Below, in pieces: positions 1 to 6,765 of a stretch of 6,765 nt of DNA; position 1 is the first letter of the stretch; every line of letters starts with the position of its first letter. The position numbers and the translations under genes were made by a program. Source of the stretch: a bacterium Ga0077546 (GTDB lineage Bacteria; Cyanobacteriota; Vampirovibrionia; Obscuribacterales; Obscuribacteraceae). The stretch spans positions 1-6,765 of the forward strand of contig LNEX01000079.1 of the NCBI GenBank assembly GCA_001464165.1, read 5' to 3'. Under the pieces are notes generated by a model that saw only the letters and a list, made by a program, of their open reading frames with translations, searched no databases and was not told the DNA's origin.

Positions 1-274
1 AGCGAATGAGACGCTCTCTTCCCATAGCTCGTTCGATAGCAAGCAATCCATTGAGCAGGTCACGAGGTCCAAGATCTGTTTCAAGCGCTACTGCCGCGTT
101 AATAAAATCAGGCTGCTCAACCACGCCCCAGGGCTTAGTGGCATAAAGGCTAGATTTCTTCAAAACACTGCCCAAATCAGAGAGTCGAGTGATTGCTTCA
201 TTAACATTGCAGACGGCATCACCAATATTTGAGCCGATACCAATATAAGATTTACTTGTATGCGATTTGCTCAT
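1..274 (-). CDS. folK: HPPK, 6-hydroxymethyl-7,8-dihydropterin pyrophosphokinase (3' end beyond window)
   Basis: FolK transfers pyrophosphate from ATP to 6-hydroxymethyl-7,8-dihydropterin, giving the activated pterin used by FolP; it is cytosolic. Translating the minus strand from the ATG at 272-274 gives 91 residues before the window ends. The family landmarks are present: the opening YIGIGSNIGD (residues 10-19), the pterin-binding region SSLYATKPWGVVEQPDFINA (41-60), and AIERAMGRER (79-88), which leads into the ATP-binding region. The metal-binding DxD aspartates and the C-terminus lie outside the window, so about half of a typical ~160-residue protein is visible. The start follows the folB stop by 13 bases, and a GAGAG ribosome binding site overlaps that stop codon (TGAGAG), which suggests translational coupling. 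It is the last visible gene of the CADD-folP-folB-folK operon. Confidence 0.93.
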   Translation of the reverse strand, partial: MSKSHTSKSYIGIGSNIGDAVCNVNEAITRLSDLGSVLKKSSLYATKPWGVVEQPDFINAAVALETDLGPRDLLNGLLAIERAMGRERLIR

Positions 275-287
275 ATAGATAGTTCTC

Positions 288-653
288 TCAGTCTGAGTAA
301 TTTGGGTTAGAGCGACGAAGAACTACTTCAGGAGTACATCCAGCCAGAATATTTGGCTTCGCTATAGCCACTTGAACAGTGCGAATACGTCTATCTTCGA
401 AAATCGAGAGCACTATCTCTGTAGCAATGCGCTCCAAGAGATTATACGAAGTCTCAGTGATGATTCGTCTCACCAGTCTGTTGACTCCGCTGTAATTGAC
501 AGTGTCTTCCAATGCATCTGTGGTTCCTGGCTTTTCTAGATTAATTTCAAGCTCAATATTCAAAACGAAATCTTGTGCCTTATCTTTCTCTCCAGGATTT
601 GCTCCATGGTGACCAGCAACCACCAAATTCTTTAGCCTAATTAAATCTGGCAT
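288..653 (-). CDS. folB: Dihydroneopterin aldolase
   Basis: FolB cleaves 7,8-dihydroneopterin to 6-hydroxymethyl-7,8-dihydropterin and glycolaldehyde, the step before FolK. The protein has 121 residues from the chosen start, the normal family length (~120). It opens with the usual DxIRLKNL strand. Residues matching those needed for catalysis and pterin binding are present: Glu22 (PGEKDK), Tyr54 (VNYSGV), Glu75 (NLLERIA) and Lys99 (AIAKPNI). A GTG six bases upstream (657-659) is in frame, but it would overlap the ribosome binding site AGAGGG. The ATG at 651-653 sits five bases after that site and gives the family-typical N-terminus, so I prefer it. The gap to the folP stop is 12 bases and to folK 13 bases, consistent with one operon. 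Confidence 0.94.
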   Translation of the reverse strand: MPDLIRLKNLVVAGHHGANPGEKDKAQDFVLNIELEINLEKPGTTDALEDTVNYSGVNRLVRRIITETSYNLLERIATEIVLSIFEDRRIRTVQVAIAKPNILAGCTPEVVLRRSNPNYSD

Positions 654-665
654 TTTCACCCTCTG

Positions 666-1499
666 CTAGCTTGCGTCAGACCAATGGCTCGGTCGCCACT
701 GCCGAACGATGGCATCTGCCACCCTCACAGTATCAATAATCTCAGCTACATCGTGCACCCTGACGATATCGACACCAGCCTCAATACCAAGAGCAACGGT
801 GGCAGCAGTACCAAACACTCGCTCATGAGCTGGACGACCAGTCAATTTTCCAATCGTTGATTTGCGAGAGGTACCCAATAAGACGGGAAAGCCCAGAGCA
901 GTAAGATTATTCAACCCAGCCAGCATTTCAATATTATGGTCGGCAGTTTTGCCAAAGCCAATACCAGGATCAAGAATTATCTGATTCTGAGTAAGGCCAC
1001 ATTGCACAGCCTGATTTGCAGCCTGTTTCAAATAGGAACAGACCTCACTGACAACAGATTTTGCATAAACAGCACTAGCCTTATTGTGCATAATAACCAC
1101 CGGGCATTGGTGGTGCCTGACGCTTTCAAGCAATCCCTTTTCTAAGCCCCAAACTGAATTGAGAAGGTCAGCTCCGCAATTAAGAGCCTCTGTCAAAACT
1201 GCAGGGCTATAGGTATCAATCGAAATGATCGCATCAGAGTAGCGGCGCAGCTTAGTCAATACCGGCAAAACTCGCTCGGCTTCTTCTTCTTCACTAATAG
1301 CAGTATGACCAGGCCGAGTTGACTGGCCACCGATGTCGACGAGATCTGCACCTTGCTTTATTTGCTCAAGGGCCAAGGAGACAGCACTGTCTGTATCAAC
1401 AATGCCGTCTCCCGAGAAGGAGTCAGGAGTTACATTGACAATTCCCATGACAAATGTGCGCTCGCCGAACTTAAGCTGCTTATTGCGGATAGTTAACAC
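666..1499 (-). CDS. folP: Dihydropteroate synthase
   Basis: FolP condenses 6-hydroxymethyl-dihydropterin pyrophosphate with pABA to make dihydropteroate; it is the sulfonamide target. The 277-residue length is typical. TIM-barrel signatures appear in order: MGIVNVTPDSFS (18-29, pyrophosphate and metal loop with Asn22), DIGGQSTRPG (55-64, pABA loop), SIDTY (93-97), DLLNSVWG (111-118), LDPGIGFGKT (176-185, pterin pocket), GTSRKS (209-214) and RVHD (247-250). All expected catalytic positions look intact. The start is GTG with only a weak upstream site (GTGGAT). The next in-frame ATG, at Met18, would cut off the first barrel strand, so GTG is preferred. The gene starts 14 bases after the CADD-like gene stops and ends 12 bases before folB. 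It is a separate protein, not a FolKP fusion as in chlamydiae. Confidence 0.96.
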   Translation of the reverse strand: MLTIRNKQLKFGERTFVMGIVNVTPDSFSGDGIVDTDSAVSLALEQIKQGADLVDIGGQSTRPGHTAISEEEEAERVLPVLTKLRRYSDAIISIDTYSPAVLTEALNCGADLLNSVWGLEKGLLESVRHHQCPVVIMHNKASAVYAKSVVSEVCSYLKQAANQAVQCGLTQNQIILDPGIGFGKTADHNIEMLAGLNNLTALGFPVLLGTSRKSTIGKLTGRPAHERVFGTAATVALGIEAGVDIVRVHDVAEIIDTVRVADAIVRQWRPSHWSDAS

Positions 1500-1513
1500 C
1501 GACTATCCACGCA

Positions 1514-2257
1514 CTAACAGGCCATAGCCAAAGCAGACGGAGCCAGCTGATCTTGCGGTATGCCAGTTCTCTTCATCTCAATACCATCAAGAGCCTGCCA
1601 GAGATGCTGTGCAGCTCTCTCGGCAGAATCAAGTGCTAGTTGAATAGTCTGGTCCCTATCGTTATCACTGTGCTCTAGTTCTTGCTCGATCAGTTCTTGC
1701 CAAACCTTGGTGTGCTCAATATCGGCAGTCGCATGAATGGAGAAATACTTGTAGCTTTTAGCATCTGCACCATAATGCTGCTTCAAGCCTACGGCTTTCT
1801 CTTTGGCAATGCGAGGCACTTGCGACTCATAAGCACAAAAAGCAGCAAGAGCTTCATTGGTTTTGCCGCTGCCAGAAATATTGCTGTAGAAGTCTACTAA
1901 TTCATTGACTTGAGGAAGATGCTCGGTGTTTTCAACTTCGCTACGCTCAGCTCCCATTCCAGCTGCAAAATCTAACCAGATATCAGAGTGTGAGCGTTTG
2001 TCCGGCGATAATGCACCCAACTCATCCAGACGATTCTCTTTGATTGCTTGTTTCAGTCCACCATCGGCCAGACGGTTCTCGAGCATCTCGAGATAGTGAG
2101 GAAACGCCTCTATATGCTTATAGTACTGACTTGAGTACATGCGCAAATCATCTTTGGACAATAAGCCGTTTGTCCAAGCCTGGTAAAACGAATGAGCTAG
2201 TAAGTCATATTTTTCGATTCGAGCATTGAATTCGCACCAAAAAGTTTTGGTATCCAT
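1514..2257 (-). CDS. CADD-like dimetal oxygenase, probable pABA synthase
   Basis: This 247-residue protein belongs to the TenA/PqqC heme-oxygenase-like fold and closely matches Chlamydia CADD (CT610). CADD makes para-aminobenzoate by oxygen-dependent cleavage of its own tyrosine at a dinuclear Fe/Mn site. By my recalled alignment, key CADD residues are kept: Tyr27 and Tyr43 correspond to Tyr25 and Tyr41; Glu81 and His88 to Glu79 and His90; Glu142 to Glu144; Lys152 to Lys154; and His174, Asp178, His181 to His175, Asp179, His182 with identical spacing. The stretch around Glu144 (YESQVPRIAKEK) is almost the same as in Chlamydia. The chosen ATG (2255-2257) has a GGGGG site seven bases upstream; a longer reading to 2326 adds 23 residues unlike the family. 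Immediate linkage to folP, folB and folK supports a role in supplying pABA. No signal peptide or membrane segment is seen. The TenA thiamin-salvage role is less likely. Confidence 0.88.
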   Translation of the reverse strand: MDTKTFWCEFNARIEKYDLLAHSFYQAWTNGLLSKDDLRMYSSQYYKHIEAFPHYLEMLENRLADGGLKQAIKENRLDELGALSPDKRSHSDIWLDFAAGMGAERSEVENTEHLPQVNELVDFYSNISGSGKTNEALAAFCAYESQVPRIAKEKAVGLKQHYGADAKSYKYFSIHATADIEHTKVWQELIEQELEHSDNDRDQTIQLALDSAERAAQHLWQALDGIEMKRTGIPQDQLAPSALAMAC

Positions 2258-2407
2258 CGGTAAGCCCCCGCAGTTGGTATCACTCAAAGTTAAGTCAGTG
2301 AAGCTTAGAACACAAGTAAACATCAACTAGATTGAGCAAATCGAAACGTCAAAACGATATGAAACAAGTTTTGAAGTAAATGGAGAATTCCGAAGATTTC
2401 AAAATAT

Positions 2408-2437
2408 AATGCCCTACCGGTAAACCGATAGGGCATT
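2408..2437 (-). terminator. Rho-independent terminator after the RRM gene
   Basis: On the minus-strand RNA the arms AUGCCCUA-U-CGG and CCG-G-UAGGGCAU pair almost perfectly around a UUUA loop. The single C/A mismatch seen on the plus strand becomes a U-G wobble in this RNA, so the hairpin is more stable in this direction. It is followed by AUAUUUU, a modest U-tract. It lies about 75 bases after the stop of the RRM gene and about 150 bases before the CADD-like gene. It therefore separates the RNA-binding gene from the folate operon, which must have its own promoter in 2258-2407. Confidence 0.85.
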
Positions 2438-2471
2438 GATATTAGCTTTTAAGCTTGCATACTGGTTAGTA

Positions 2472-2493
2472 CTTTAGAGGAAAACCACTAAAG
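2472..2493 (-). other. Second hairpin in the 3' UTR of the RRM gene
   Basis: The minus-strand RNA can form CUUUAG-U-GG / CC-U-CUAAAG with a UUUU loop: six pairs, a U-U mismatch and two inner pairs. It lies between the RRM stop codon and the terminator hairpin and has no U-tract of its own, so it is not a terminator by itself. It may protect the 3' end of the mRNA or be a protein-binding element. The function is inference. Confidence 0.35.
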
Positions 2494-2512
2494 ACGACAC
2501 ACGGGCTGCAAT

Positions 2513-2800
2513 TTAATAACGGCCTCTGCCGCCACCGCCGCCGCCATCGCGGGACTTAGGCTGGGAAACGTTAACTGCGATTTGTCTGCCATCAACTTCA
2601 CGTCCGTTGAGAGCTTTAATTGCAGCTTCAGCTTGGGCTTGGGTCGCCATTTCTACGAAAGCGAAACCACGTTGTCTGCCAGTCTCACGATCGGTTGGGA
2701 TCGCTACTGATACAACTTCGCCGTACTCAGCAAAAAGATCTTGAAGATCTTGCTGTGTAGTTTTGAATGAAAGGTTTCCTACAAACAATTTGTTATTCAC
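2513..2800 (-). CDS. Glycine-rich RRM RNA-binding protein (cyanobacterial Rbp type)
   Basis: This 95-residue protein is one RNA recognition motif plus a short glycine-rich tail. RNP2 is LFVGNL (residues 5-10) and RNP1 is RGFAFVEM (44-51); the aromatic residues of these motifs, which stack on RNA bases, are kept (Phe6, Phe46, Phe48). The intervening TDRETGRQ loop is typical. The tail from residue 85 is six glycines followed by RGRY, as in the small Rbp proteins of cyanobacteria, some of which are cold-induced. The likely role is cytosolic RNA binding, possibly in mRNA localisation or stability; the targets are unknown. The start is GTG at 2798-2800 with a good AAGAGGA site nine bases upstream. 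The gene has its own terminator and a leader of up to 134 bases, so it is probably a monocistronic unit. Confidence 0.93.
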   Translation of the reverse strand: MNNKLFVGNLSFKTTQQDLQDLFAEYGEVVSVAIPTDRETGRQRGFAFVEMATQAQAEAAIKALNGREVDGRQIAVNVSQPKSRDGGGGGGRGRY

Positions 2801-2870
2801 GTCAATTTTCCTCTTACGACCGCAAAATCTCAGTTTATCGAGACAATTGGTCCTTTTGTACTGTACTAGT

Positions 2871-2903
2871 TTGGCATGGTTTTACGTTTGAAACCATAGC
2901 CAA
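2871..2903 (-). other. Bulged 12-bp hairpin between the orphan gene and the RRM gene
   Basis: TTGGC then ATGGTTT on the plus strand pair with AAACCAT then GCCAA, leaving one bulged base (2898) and an eight-base loop. In the minus-strand RNA it lies 32 bases after the orphan stop and 71 bases before the RRM start. No U-tract follows in either direction, so it is a poor intrinsic terminator. It could be a processing site, a factor-dependent end of the lysC-orphan transcript, or a leader structure of the RRM mRNA. Confidence 0.45.
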
Positions 2904-2934
2904 GTCCATTTGGCAAAGATGCCTTAAGCAGTCT

Positions 2935-3921
2935 TTACCTAATCTCTGCTGAACCATCCAACTTAGGTGCTTTTTGAGCGACCTGAGCCTTACCCTTGAC
3001 TTCACTTGAAAGATCTGTCTGGAGTTCGTCAGAGACCACACCGTTGCCTTTCGACCCCGTTGTAGGAACTTTATCCGCTATTTGCGGTTTTTCTTCATTA
3101 GACCGAGCTAAGGCAAGAGCTTTTTCGCGCTCTTTTAACAACTTGACTACCTTGCTCAGTTTACGTAGATTGGCACGAGCTTCAAATTGCTCGGTGATAT
3201 CCACGTCGTGTCGTTCAATCATTCTCCATTCGCGAATGGTGCGGTCGAGAAGCGCTTTATCAATTTCAGTGTCTTTCGACTTGCGTAAAATACCAGTCAT
3301 TGACCGGGCAAGAAGGACATGGCCGGTGGGGTCACCCGGGTCAAACTGTACAGCTTTAGAAAGCTTTCTATAGGCCTCTTTGAAATTACCTTCAACCAAA
3401 GCCTGCTCACCACCAAAGCGCATATAAGAGGCTTCAGACATACGCCCGCTAATGCCCTTGCCGAAGAATGCTGCATTGGCTGGCTCTCTTGAATAAGAGG
3501 TGGCCTCGTCATCATTAATTTGGGGCGAAATTGTGTCGCCACTTGCCGCACGACAAGTAGCCGTTACCCCAGCAAGAGAGGCCAGCGTATTCTTCAATGT
3601 TATGTCGGCGATGTCAACATGTTGTCCACTCTGAATATCAGCAATTTCGGCTTCTAGTTCAGCAATGCGAATGCCTATGCGGTCAATCTGAGTCAACTCT
3701 TCTTGAATTTTCTCTTGCAAGACCTTGCCGTCGATAGCTGAATTTTCAAAAAACAATGTATATGTACGCTGACCAATAGTTTGTAGATGCTGCGTCTTTT
3801 CAGAAGTTAGTGACATCACTGTCATCTTCAACTTCGCTGCTTTGGCAGCGCGATTGGTCTGATCCGCGGCCTGTTTGGTCGCCTCTTTTACCTTGTTGAA
3901 AATGTTATCTAATCCGGCCAT
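2935..3921 (-). CDS. Unrecognised protein with helical N-terminus and one TPR-like repeat
   Basis: I do not recognise this 328-residue protein. Residues 1-35 form an Ala/Lys-rich amphipathic helix (MAGLDNIFNKVKEATKQAAD), and residues 36-98 are heptad-like and probably coiled coil (KIQEELTQIDRIGIRIAELE). This N-terminal arrangement resembles that of small bacterial zinc-ribbon proteins, but no Cys pairs follow: the only cysteine is Cys123. Residues 100-160 look like a flexible linker. Residues 165-200 match one tetratricopeptide repeat (EGNFKEAYRKLSKAVQFDP), followed by charged helices to about 275. The last ~50 residues are low-complexity, Lys/Ser/Ala-rich and likely disordered. There is no signal peptide or membrane segment. 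The ATG at 3919-3921 has a GAGA site six bases upstream. It starts 50 bases after lysC with no terminator between them, so co-transcription is likely. A scaffold or adaptor role is only a guess. Confidence 0.8.
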   Translation of the reverse strand: MAGLDNIFNKVKEATKQAADQTNRAAKAAKLKMTVMSLTSEKTQHLQTIGQRTYTLFFENSAIDGKVLQEKIQEELTQIDRIGIRIAELEAEIADIQSGQHVDIADITLKNTLASLAGVTATCRAASGDTISPQINDDEATSYSREPANAAFFGKGISGRMSEASYMRFGGEQALVEGNFKEAYRKLSKAVQFDPGDPTGHVLLARSMTGILRKSKDTEIDKALLDRTIREWRMIERHDVDITEQFEARANLRKLSKVVKLLKEREKALALARSNEEKPQIADKVPTTGSKGNGVVSDELQTDLSSEVKGKAQVAQKAPKLDGSAEIR

Positions 3922-3971
3922 TTCTATCTCACGCTTTGACTTTACCGAAAACCTTATCTAAATAGTAAAAC

Positions 3972-5228
3972 CTAAACTGTGACGGAACCATCAGAGAGGT
4001 TAAAGCGCTGATGAATCAGCCTGACTGCGTCTCGCCCATGTTTGGCGGAAGTAATTACACTCATGCGCATATCGCCAGTGGCTACCATTTGTACAGGAAT
4101 ACTGGCATTGTGCAGAACTTCAAAAACGCCAGCCACAACTTCAGGTCTATTGGTTAGACGCCTTCCTACTACCGAAACTTTAGCTATATCGGTCTCCACC
4201 TGCATGAGAGGGTTACCCAAGCTCAAGGCAAGAGATTCAATTAACTGTTGAACCCGAGGCAAAGCTAACTTTTCTACCGTGAAAACTAGCTCTTGAGATG
4301 GCTCATCTTCGTGCTTTAGAACCATCACCATATCAGTTTGAATACCAAGCTCTTGCAAACGAGTGAAGAGTGCCGATATCCCTTCTAGTGGCTTGTTCTC
4401 GTTAGCGTTGTCGAGACTCTTAAGGGTAACGCTGGCCGAATTCATATCGCAGGAAATGCCAGCAATGGCGTATTCAGGCGAAACCACCCGGTGGGTAATA
4501 AGGGTGCCGACATCTTCTGGTACGAATGTGGAGCGCACTCTAATTGGTACTTGGTTATCCATGGCAAGTTCTACCGACCTAGCATTCATTACCTGTGCTC
4601 CCGTGGCAGCAAGTTCTAACATCTCTTCGTAGCTGACCGACGGCAATTTTCTGGCATTAGAGATAATTCGTGGGTCAGCGGTATAAACTCCTCTTACATC
4701 AGTATAAATGTCGCAGCGATCGGCGCCCAAAGCAGCAGCTAGTGCAACAGCTGTAGTGTCGGAACCTCCGCGACCAAGAGTGGTCAATTCATCATTTTCA
4801 GTCACGCCTTGAAAGCCAGCGACAACAGCTATCTCGCCGCGAGCCAGAGACGACTCAAGGCGATCGGTACGCATCTCTTGAATTTTGGCCACGCCATGCC
4901 GGCTCTCCGTAATAATTCCAGCCTGCGACCCAGTGAAAGACTTGGCTTCATGACCCATTGTCTGAATCGCCATGGTCATCAAGGCAATTGAGACTTGCTC
5001 ACCAGTCGCTAAGAGCATGTCCATTTCACGGGGATTGCGCTCACCCGAAGTAGGGATTATCTGCTCTGCCAGAGATATTAGATGATCAGTAGTGTGGCCC
5101 ATGGCGGATACAACAGTAGTGACTTCATGACCTTCGCTAGCGGCTTTCACCACTATCTCAGCAGCCTTGCGAATCTTATTTACGTCTGCGACTGAGGTGC
5201 CACCGAACTTTTGAACGATACGGGCCAT
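3972..5228 (-). CDS. lysC: Aspartate kinase, monofunctional with two ACT domains
   Basis: The enzyme phosphorylates L-aspartate with ATP to aspartyl-4-phosphate, the first step to lysine (and diaminopimelate), threonine and methionine. The 418-residue length fits the Corynebacterium/Bacillus-type alpha subunit, not the ~600-residue four-ACT form common in photosynthetic cyanobacteria. Kinase motifs are KFGGTSV (7-13), TGEQVS (75-80), GRGGSDTTAVALAAALGA (152-169) and DIYTDVRGVYTADPR (173-187), all intact. Two ACT domains follow, at about 255-330 and 345-410, ending in the usual QMVATGDMRMSVI strand. In both ACT domains the usual Pro-Gly turn is altered (PLEGIS; RPEVVA), so feedback control may differ. 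The first ATG (5226-5228) gives the canonical MARIVQKFGG opening; its ribosome binding site is weak (GAGA). An internal start for a separate beta subunit is possible but not shown. Confidence 0.95.
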   Translation of the reverse strand: MARIVQKFGGTSVADVNKIRKAAEIVVKAASEGHEVTTVVSAMGHTTDHLISLAEQIIPTSGERNPREMDMLLATGEQVSIALMTMAIQTMGHEAKSFTGSQAGIITESRHGVAKIQEMRTDRLESSLARGEIAVVAGFQGVTENDELTTLGRGGSDTTAVALAAALGADRCDIYTDVRGVYTADPRIISNARKLPSVSYEEMLELAATGAQVMNARSVELAMDNQVPIRVRSTFVPEDVGTLITHRVVSPEYAIAGISCDMNSASVTLKSLDNANENKPLEGISALFTRLQELGIQTDMVMVLKHEDEPSQELVFTVEKLALPRVQQLIESLALSLGNPLMQVETDIAKVSVVGRRLTNRPEVVAGVFEVLHNASIPVQMVATGDMRMSVITSAKHGRDAVRLIHQRFNLSDGSVTV

Positions 5229-5366
5229 GAATCTCGATTACTTACTTAAGGAAAAATAGATAGAAGTACCACCTGACAATGATAGCGGATGCACCAAAGC
5301 AAAAGAGAAAGGCGTTACCAAAAATACCTAATCAATTTTTCACTTTGCTGATTTAGATCTCTTGCG
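5229..5366 (-). other. Intergenic region between hutU and lysC
   Basis: These 138 bases are AT-rich and hold no ORF worth calling. I saw no convincing terminator for hutU and no clear -35/-10 pair for lysC. The stretch is too short for a lysine riboswitch of the usual size, and I see none of its paired elements. The hutU-proximal end contains the second copy of a 12-base repeat (see the repeat at 5354-5379). Confidence 0.5.
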
Positions 5367-5379
5367 CTAGATCTCTTGC
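5354..5379 (-). repeat. Tandem direct repeat across the hutU stop codon
   Basis: TAGATCTCTTGC on the plus strand occurs at 5354-5365 and again at 5368-5379, a period of 14 bases. On the coding strand the first copy encodes the last residues (QEI) and the TAG stop; the second copy lies just downstream. It looks like a short tandem duplication at the gene end. Confidence 0.8.
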
Positions 5380-6765
5380 ATAGGTATGCGGATATCTGTA
5401 CCAGCGACAAAATCAAGGGCCTCATCATAACCAGCATCGACGTGACGAATCACACCCATACCAGGGTCAGTTGTGAGCACACGGGTAAGCCGCTCGGCTG
5501 CTTCAGGGGTACCGTCAGCAACTATGACCTGACCAGAGTGCAAGGAATAACCCATGCCAACTCCACCACCATGGTGCAGCGAGACCCAACTGGCGCCGCC
5601 AACGGCATTGATCATGGCATTCAAATAAACCCAGTCGGCCACAGCATCTGAGCCGTCTTTCATCGCTTCAGTTTCACGGTTAGGTGAGGCCACAGAGCCA
5701 GAATCAAGGTGATCTCTGCCAATTACAATTGGTGCTTTGACTTTGCCTGAAGCCACTAAATCATTCATGATAAGGCCCATTTTCAAGCGATCGCCATAGC
5801 CGAGCCAGCAGATGCGAGCTGGAAGACCTTGGAACTTCACGCGTTCAGCAGCTAGCTTGATCCAACGACAAAGTTCGACATTATCAGCAAAGTTGGCAAG
5901 GATAGCTTGGTCAATCACAGCAATGTCTTGCGGGTCGCCCGAAAGCGCCGCCCAGCGAAATGGCCCTTTACCTTCGCAGAACAGTGGGCGAATGAATGCT
6001 GGAACAAAGCCGGGGAAATCAAAGGCATCTTTAACGCCGTGATTGAAAGCTTCTTGGCGAATATTATTACCATAATCGAAAGTGATAGCACCGCGTTTCT
6101 GAAACTCTAGCATCGCTTTGACATGAGTAACAATGGCACGGTCAGCCAGTTGTAGGTAGGTGGCTGTGTCGCTAGCACGCAAACTTGTGGCGTCGGCAAT
6201 AGACATTGGCTTGCCGTCTTTCGCTAATGGAATATAGCCGTTCAGCGGATCGTGAGCTGAAGTTTGGTCAGTGACAACGTCAGGCAAGAAGCCAATTTCA
6301 AGCATGCGAGGGAGAAGATCGGCAGCATTGCCACAAAGACCAATCGAAACAGCCTCACCCTTCTCTTTGGCCACTTTAGCCAAAGTCAAAGCGTGCTCTA
6401 AGCTGTCGGCCTGCACATCAAGGTAGGCTGTTTGCAACCGTCTTGCTATTCTCGTTTGGTCTGCTTCAATACAAAGAGCCACTCCTTCATTCATGGTCAC
6501 TGCTAGTGGCTGAGCGCCACCCATGCCACCAAGACCAGAGGTAAGAACAACGCGACCTTTTAGTGTGCCAGCAAAATGCTTGCGAGCAAGGGATGCAAAA
6601 GTTTCATACGTACCTTGCAAAATGCCCTGGGTACCAATATAAATCCAAGAACCAGCCGTCATTTGGCCAAACATCATCAGGCCTTTTTTGTCGAGCTCAC
6701 GGAAGTGCTCCCAGGTAGCCCAATGTCCAACAAGATTAGAATTGGCAATTAAAACTCGAGGAGCG
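5367..6765 (-). CDS. hutU: Urocanate hydratase (5' end beyond window)
   Basis: HutU hydrates urocanate to 4-imidazolone-5-propanoate, the second step of histidine breakdown, using tightly bound NAD+ as an electrophile. The reading frame runs to the window edge: upstream of the internal Met-Met at 6672-6677 it continues as [20 protein letters not shown], which matches the family, so that Met is not the start. About 465 residues are visible and about 90 N-terminal ones are missing from a usual ~555. Visible landmarks are [13 protein letters not shown] FGQMTAGSW, the NAD-binding GLGGMGG (nt 6516-6536), [31 protein letters not shown] with the conserved Cys (nt 5808-5810, equivalent to Cys410 of Pseudomonas), DHLDSGSV (nt 5691-5714) and [11 protein letters not shown]. 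Nothing looks damaged. Other hut genes, if present, lie outside the window. Confidence 0.96.

Follow-up and report, generated by a model that had tools for sequence, protein, structure and literature searches.

How a bacterium obtains the para-aminobenzoate (pABA) that its folate pathway consumes is the question raised by a 6,765-nt stretch of bacterium Ga0077546 (contig LNEX01000079.1 of assembly GCA_001464165.1, positions 1-6,765; all of it is called the window here). On its minus strand, a gene for a relative of the Chlamydia protein CADD is the first of four, in the order CADD, folP, folB, folK. A first-pass annotation of this DNA had proposed that a close CADD homolog heads a folate operon, and the profile and structure comparisons described below bear this out. 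The gene at 1514-2257 very probably encodes a self-sacrificing pABA synthase of the type represented by CADD and by NePabS of Nitrosomonas europaea. The direct basis for assigning this activity is homology, the predicted fold, the retained residues, the operon and the single trpE-like chorismate enzyme of CADD-bearing kin. Enzymes of this type, the reaction they perform and their association with folate genes were known before; added here are the lineage, the operon together with its absence from kin, and a split of the family into tyrosine and phenylalanine pairs beside the metal site.

Family and key residues of the CADD-type protein

The window protein matched the NCBIfam model TIGR04305 (fol_rel_CADD) with 182.6 bits (E 7.1e-54). 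Among solved structures its best match was Chlamydia CADD, both in sequence (1RCW, E = 5e-29) and in the structural comparison of its predicted model, where CADD ranked first. Given the match to 1RCW and 2039 homologs at E <= 1e-3, the resemblance is not due to chance. Four close homologs shared 82-99% identity with the protein. P0003, whose CADD is 83% identical and is encoded on a 6.7 Mb contig, represents a near relative of the organism. Some Terriglobales proteins are already called 'CADD family' by NCBI. No papers on CADD in acidobacteria or Melainabacteria were found in the open-licence literature, which is no proof of absence in print. The C-terminal residue of the protein is a cysteine (codon 1517-1519, minus strand), as it is in 14 of 26 aligned relatives.

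The residues singled out by the first-pass annotation (Tyr25, Tyr41, Glu79, His90, Glu144, Lys154, His175, Asp179 and His182) were all found at those positions and lined up with their Chlamydia counterparts. Window Tyr25, Tyr41, Glu79, His90, Tyr143 and Glu144 aligned with CADD Tyr27, Tyr43, Glu81, His88, Tyr141 and Glu142, and window Lys154, Tyr171, His175, Asp179 and His182 aligned with CADD Lys152, Tyr170, His174, Asp178 and His181. By this alignment Tyr25 is the predicted sacrificial tyrosine, Lys154 the predicted amine donor and Tyr41 the counterpart of the second essential tyrosine, while Glu79, His90, Glu144, His175, Asp179 and His182 are predicted to form a dimetal site of three histidines and three carboxylates. 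Tyr41, Tyr45, Trp94 (Trp99 in NePabS), Tyr143 and Tyr171 probably lie on the radical path.

Thirteen key sites were intact in 201 of 204 sequences, which comprised the window protein, 120 listed homologs and 83 genome loci (duplicates L081, L082 and L085 and loci above L086 were excluded). The exceptions were a gap at Glu79 in L054, arginine for Lys154 in L080 and glutamine for His175 in P0004. The L080 protein, from an Acidobacteriaceae metagenome-assembled genome (palsa_277), may be inactive or use another amine donor. The two lists of 120 proteins used in this work are the best of 2039 and the best of 3078 matches, the middle of the family being unsampled; the patterns used to fetch genome loci contained Tyr45, Tyr143 and Glu144, so that these columns are biased in the fetched loci and unbiased in the protein lists. 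A different picture emerged at 21 weakly matching loci of heme-oxygenase-like oxidases (HDOs). These represent 15 distinct genes, 20 loci coming from the window's order and one (L097) from the same class, and are a subset of all weak TIGR04305 matches. Glu144 was kept in 21/21 and both Asp179 and His182 in 20/21, but Tyr25 and Lys154 were absent from all, indicating that the sacrificial pair, beyond the fold, marks the family. The weak matches at these 21 loci were accordingly rejected as divergent synthases.

By analogy with the Chlamydia and Nitrosomonas work, the dimetal site, probably Mn/Fe, would activate O2, and an oxidising hole would move via residues such as Tyr143/Tyr171, Trp94 and Tyr45/Tyr41 to Tyr25. 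Cleavage of the Tyr25 side chain between C-alpha and C-beta would then yield the ring and carboxyl carbon of pABA, with the amine supplied by Lys154. The protein would be spent afterwards, giving at most one pABA per protein molecule. The product would be used directly by the enzyme encoded by the next gene, folP, so that the operon would couple supply with demand and stand in for PabB; the position of CADD at the head of the folP operon is consistent with a protein that serves as its own substrate. Intergenic gaps of 12-14 bases, as annotated at first pass, hold if folB starts at the ATG at 653 (14 bases for CADD-folP, 12 for folP-folB and 13 for folB-folK); with the alternative GTG start at 659 the folP-folB gap shrinks to 6.

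CADD, folate and chorismate genes in related genomes

CADD relatives were encoded on 352 matched stretches of the genome collection, and 77 of the best 80 of these bear acidobacterial titles. Across 199 evenly sampled genomes of the acidobacterial phylum, TIGR04305 matched 27 and reached at least 177 bits in 13; the initial description of CADD as reported from a few other bacteria was thus an understatement. The 77 acidobacterial-titled loci carried the same key residues, L054 and L080 being the deviants, with tyrosine at both metal-side positions in 77/77. At these loci, which vary in length, tblastn found no FolP match, and a FolK match lay beside CADD in two (L028, L052) and 7 kb away in L074.

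Among the best 80 of the 352 stretches, the DNA closest to the window was that of L001 (63%), titled Actinobacteria, followed by L002 (54%), whose title is Candidatus Melainabacteria. The two share a class and an order, which we take to be Obscuribacterales. Strong CADD matches were present in 6 of 53 genomes of this order (167.5-205.5 bits with TIGR04305; next best match 58.8 bits). These six genomes measure 3.0-8.6 Mb, a size suggesting that the lineage may not be an intracellular parasite. CADD adjoined folP genes in all six: the arrangement CADD-folP-folB-folK recurred in three (G001, G091, G143), CADD-folP-folK with no FolB match was found in G128 and G145, and in G002 CADD faced folK-folP. 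Dihydropteroate synthase (DHPS, folP) was detected in 11/53 genomes, including 6/6 with strong CADD versus 5/47 others (Fisher test, 2e-5). HPPK was found in 50/53 genomes of the order, versus a DHPS match in 11; an HPPK-like gene of ~190 aa adjoined, by eye, an acpS-like gene in 4/4 loci examined (L151-L154).

The pabB model TIGR00553 found a single gene in 30 of the 53 genomes and nothing in the other 23; no genome had two matches, and no match exceeded the cut-off. Each of the six strong-CADD genomes contained one chorismate-binding gene, best matched in 6/6 by the trpE model TIGR00564 (415-491 bits, below the cut-off; pabB models gave at most 311 bits). Directly after it, inspection by eye showed a glutamine-amidotransferase-like gene in 6/6 and a trpD-like gene in 5/6. 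Since the single gene is best described by the trpE model, no PabB was seen in these six genomes by TIGR00553, the chorismate-binding search or the comparison of trpE and pabB models. They also held ten aminotransferase-IV genes, and the three that were typed were closest to D-amino-acid (two) and branched-chain (one) transaminases. Of the 77 acidobacterial-titled CADD genomes 23 were searched, and a single chorismate-binding gene was found in 22 and none in 1. In the phylum sample, 12 of the 13 strong-CADD genomes had one such gene and one (G211) had two, compared with none in 35, one in 50 and two or more in 101 of the 186 other genomes (Fisher test, 3.7e-5 among genomes with at least one chorismate-binding gene; 1.1e-3 for two or more versus the rest of all 199). 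G164 and G170 belong to both acidobacterial sets. pabABC may be absent from the window's own genome. The results add a lineage, mostly with large genomes, where the gene for a one-shot enzyme comes first in the operon that also encodes the user of its product, with no PabB found in kin.

Three close kin (G057, G101 and G079, with loci L127, L128 and L129; aspartate kinase 96-97%, RRM protein identical) have no CADD at the same locus. There an aspartate kinase gene is followed by two small genes, the RRM gene, the hairpin, folP and folK; two of the three stretches also include hutU, and the remaining one stops short of it. Similarity to the window at the DNA level extended through the RRM hairpin and resumed inside folP. 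The three lack ~0.9 kb that contains CADD and its leader, and also folB between folP and folK (at this locus). In the FolP tree the window grouped with the CADD-less kin (93/91, an unstarred fork), with the CADD-bearing G001 next (88/89), whereas in the CADD tree it paired with G001 (97/96). Loss of CADD in the three kin is therefore the simplest reading, and gain of a CADD-folP cassette by transfer was set aside on the same groupings. A hint from the tree that FolP changed faster after the loss was dropped, as identities to the outgroup G001 are alike (window 63%, kin 62-64%). By eye, folP of these kin starts at most ~30 bases from the RRM hairpin, leaving almost no promoter room. TIGR00553 found no chorismate-binding gene in G057, G079 or G101, which should consequently need outside pABA if the genomes are complete enough. 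These kin, which lack both CADD and folB here, allow a natural comparison between pABA makers and presumed importers.

Several observations weigh against the reading as a pABA synthase. The Fisher tests ignore kinship, and gene absences were counted in genomes of unstated completeness. G211 carries a strong CADD (257.9 bits) plus two chorismate-binding genes. In five genomes of the order, folP occurs with no strong CADD and no second chorismate enzyme; their folP must then depend on pABA that is imported or of unknown origin, and the argument from need loses weight. The window protein also falls below the curated TIGR04305 cut-off of 200 bits and is thus not filed as a member of that subfamily; 5/6 strong-CADD members of the order, P0003 and P0006 likewise stay below it. 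Finally, the window protein belongs to a branch more divergent than the Nitrosomonas-type proteins, and no report of activity within this branch was found in the open-licence literature. The cut-off is an annotation threshold and no biochemical trait; 3 of the 13 strong acidobacterial CADD genomes also fall below it, while P0121, P0168 and P0104 exceed 200 bits. Searching these five genomes for a concealed CADD with TIGR04305 gave no match in G057, G099, G101 and G125 and only a 30.8-bit match in G079. G211, from the phylum of G164, is a possible case of both pABA routes in one genome.

These points bear on two other explanations. The gene could be a dispensable extra in an organism that mainly imports pABA or has PabABC, as suggested by the retention of folP-folK without CADD and folB in G057, G079 and G101 and by the lack of a folP match in 42/53 genomes of the order. 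The window gene is, however, an open frame with every key residue, the four close homologs keep these residues save for His175 in P0004, and none of the 53 genomes yielded a second chorismate enzyme with TIGR00553, which makes this explanation very unlikely. That the product is another heme-oxygenase-like oxidase (PqqC-, BesC- or UndA-like), acting on a small substrate and placed beside folP by chance, is barely plausible in view of the far stronger sequence match to CADD, the retention of Tyr25, Tyr41 and Lys154 (Tyr25 and Lys154 being absent from the 21 weak HDO loci, all from the window's class) and the proximity to folP in 6/6 genomes. A CADD-type synthase is the reading that we retain.

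The metal cofactor

The Nitrosomonas enzyme uses Fe/Fe and has phenylalanine at two metal-side positions where CADD has tyrosine; its F148Y/F177Y variant shifts in preference to Mn/Fe (PMC11965152). The window protein has tyrosine at both (Tyr143 and Tyr171, corresponding to CADD 141 and 170). The pair was tyrosine-tyrosine (YY) in 204/204 window-type sequences and phenylalanine-phenylalanine (FF) in 118/120 Nitrosomonas-type sequences, the other two being FA and FL. Taken together with the effect of the Phe-to-Tyr substitutions, the two tyrosines suggest that the cofactor of the window enzyme is probably Mn/Fe. Synthesis of pABA with an Fe/Fe cofactor, as in the Nitrosomonas enzyme, would be a variant of the same reading rather than its opposite; the YY/FF split and the shift caused by F148Y/F177Y make it unlikely.

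It has been suggested that Mn/Fe reflects iron shortage inside hosts (PMC11965152), an explanation that does not fit the YY sequences whose records bear titles of soil, bog and groundwater bacteria. According to a passage of a 2026 review (PMC13108848), no HDO other than the chlamydial enzyme is known to have an Fe/Mn cluster; an enzyme outside chlamydiae with a predicted Mn/Fe site would allow what determines the metal to be tested directly. We tentatively propose, as a possibility with rather less than even prospects, that the YY, Mn/Fe synthase is the ordinary sole pABA source of many environmental bacteria within the window's order and the acidobacteria, so that Mn/Fe would be no adaptation to iron-poor host life, and that its clean loss, as in the close kin described above, makes a folate maker dependent on imported pABA, with folP and folK retained.

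The locus and known systems

The features of the locus are collected in Table 1. Upstream of CADD lie the RRM gene, a gene without a family match, an aspartate kinase gene and hutU. A promoter scan scored no minus-strand promoter-like site in the leader, and the window contained no riboswitch match at the Rfam gathering level. Terminator-like sites were no more frequent than in shuffled sequence. The open reading frame (ORF) at 2935-3921 (minus strand, 328 aa), which has no Pfam or NCBIfam match, corresponds to two ORFs (116-119 and 228-235 aa) in L127-L129; a deletion of ~56-62 bases seems to have fused them in frame, removing the second start.

Table 1. Positions of the folate operon and its flank in the window
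Feature	Coordinates	Strand	Basis
CADD/PabS-type gene, 247 aa, predicted self-sacrificing pABA synthase	1514..2257	-	Profile match, alignment, predicted model
folP, dihydropteroate synthase (consumes pABA)	666..1499	-	TIGR01496 289.9 bits, cut-off 162.6
folB, dihydroneopterin aldolase	288..659	-	TIGR00525 72.3 bits, cut-off 72.15; PF02152 91.9 bits
folK, HPPK, 3' part lost at window edge	2..274	-	TIGR01498 73.8 bits, cut-off 54.1
Leader between upstream hairpin and CADD start	2258..2407	-	Position; promoter would be expected here
Terminator-like hairpin of upstream RRM gene	2408..2437	-	Terminator-like site scan; synteny break versus CADD-less kin directly after
RRM RNA-binding protein gene, syntenic flank, outside pathway	2513..2800	-	95/95 residues identical in L127, L128, L129

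Among known systems, PqqC, TenA, BesC and UndA appear to share the fold of the modelled window protein, but their sequence match to it is much weaker than that of CADD. With NePabS the window protein shares Tyr25, Tyr41, Tyr45, the lysine (Lys159 in NePabS) and the six ligands. It differs in having Tyr143/Tyr171 where NePabS has Phe148/Phe177 and an Fe/Fe site, and in lying beside folP whereas the NePabS gene lies beside glyA (PMC11965152); its TIGR04305 score of 182.6 bits compares with 294-295 bits for two Nitrosomonas-type proteins. CADD of Chlamydia trachomatis (CtCADD, CT610) is 31% identical in the structural alignment and likewise has tyrosine at both metal-side positions. According to one passage of PMC1971073, CT610 clusters with folABKP, a setting that the CADD-folP-folB-folK operon of the window resembles, as had been noted at the outset, in a lineage whose six strong-CADD genomes span several megabases.
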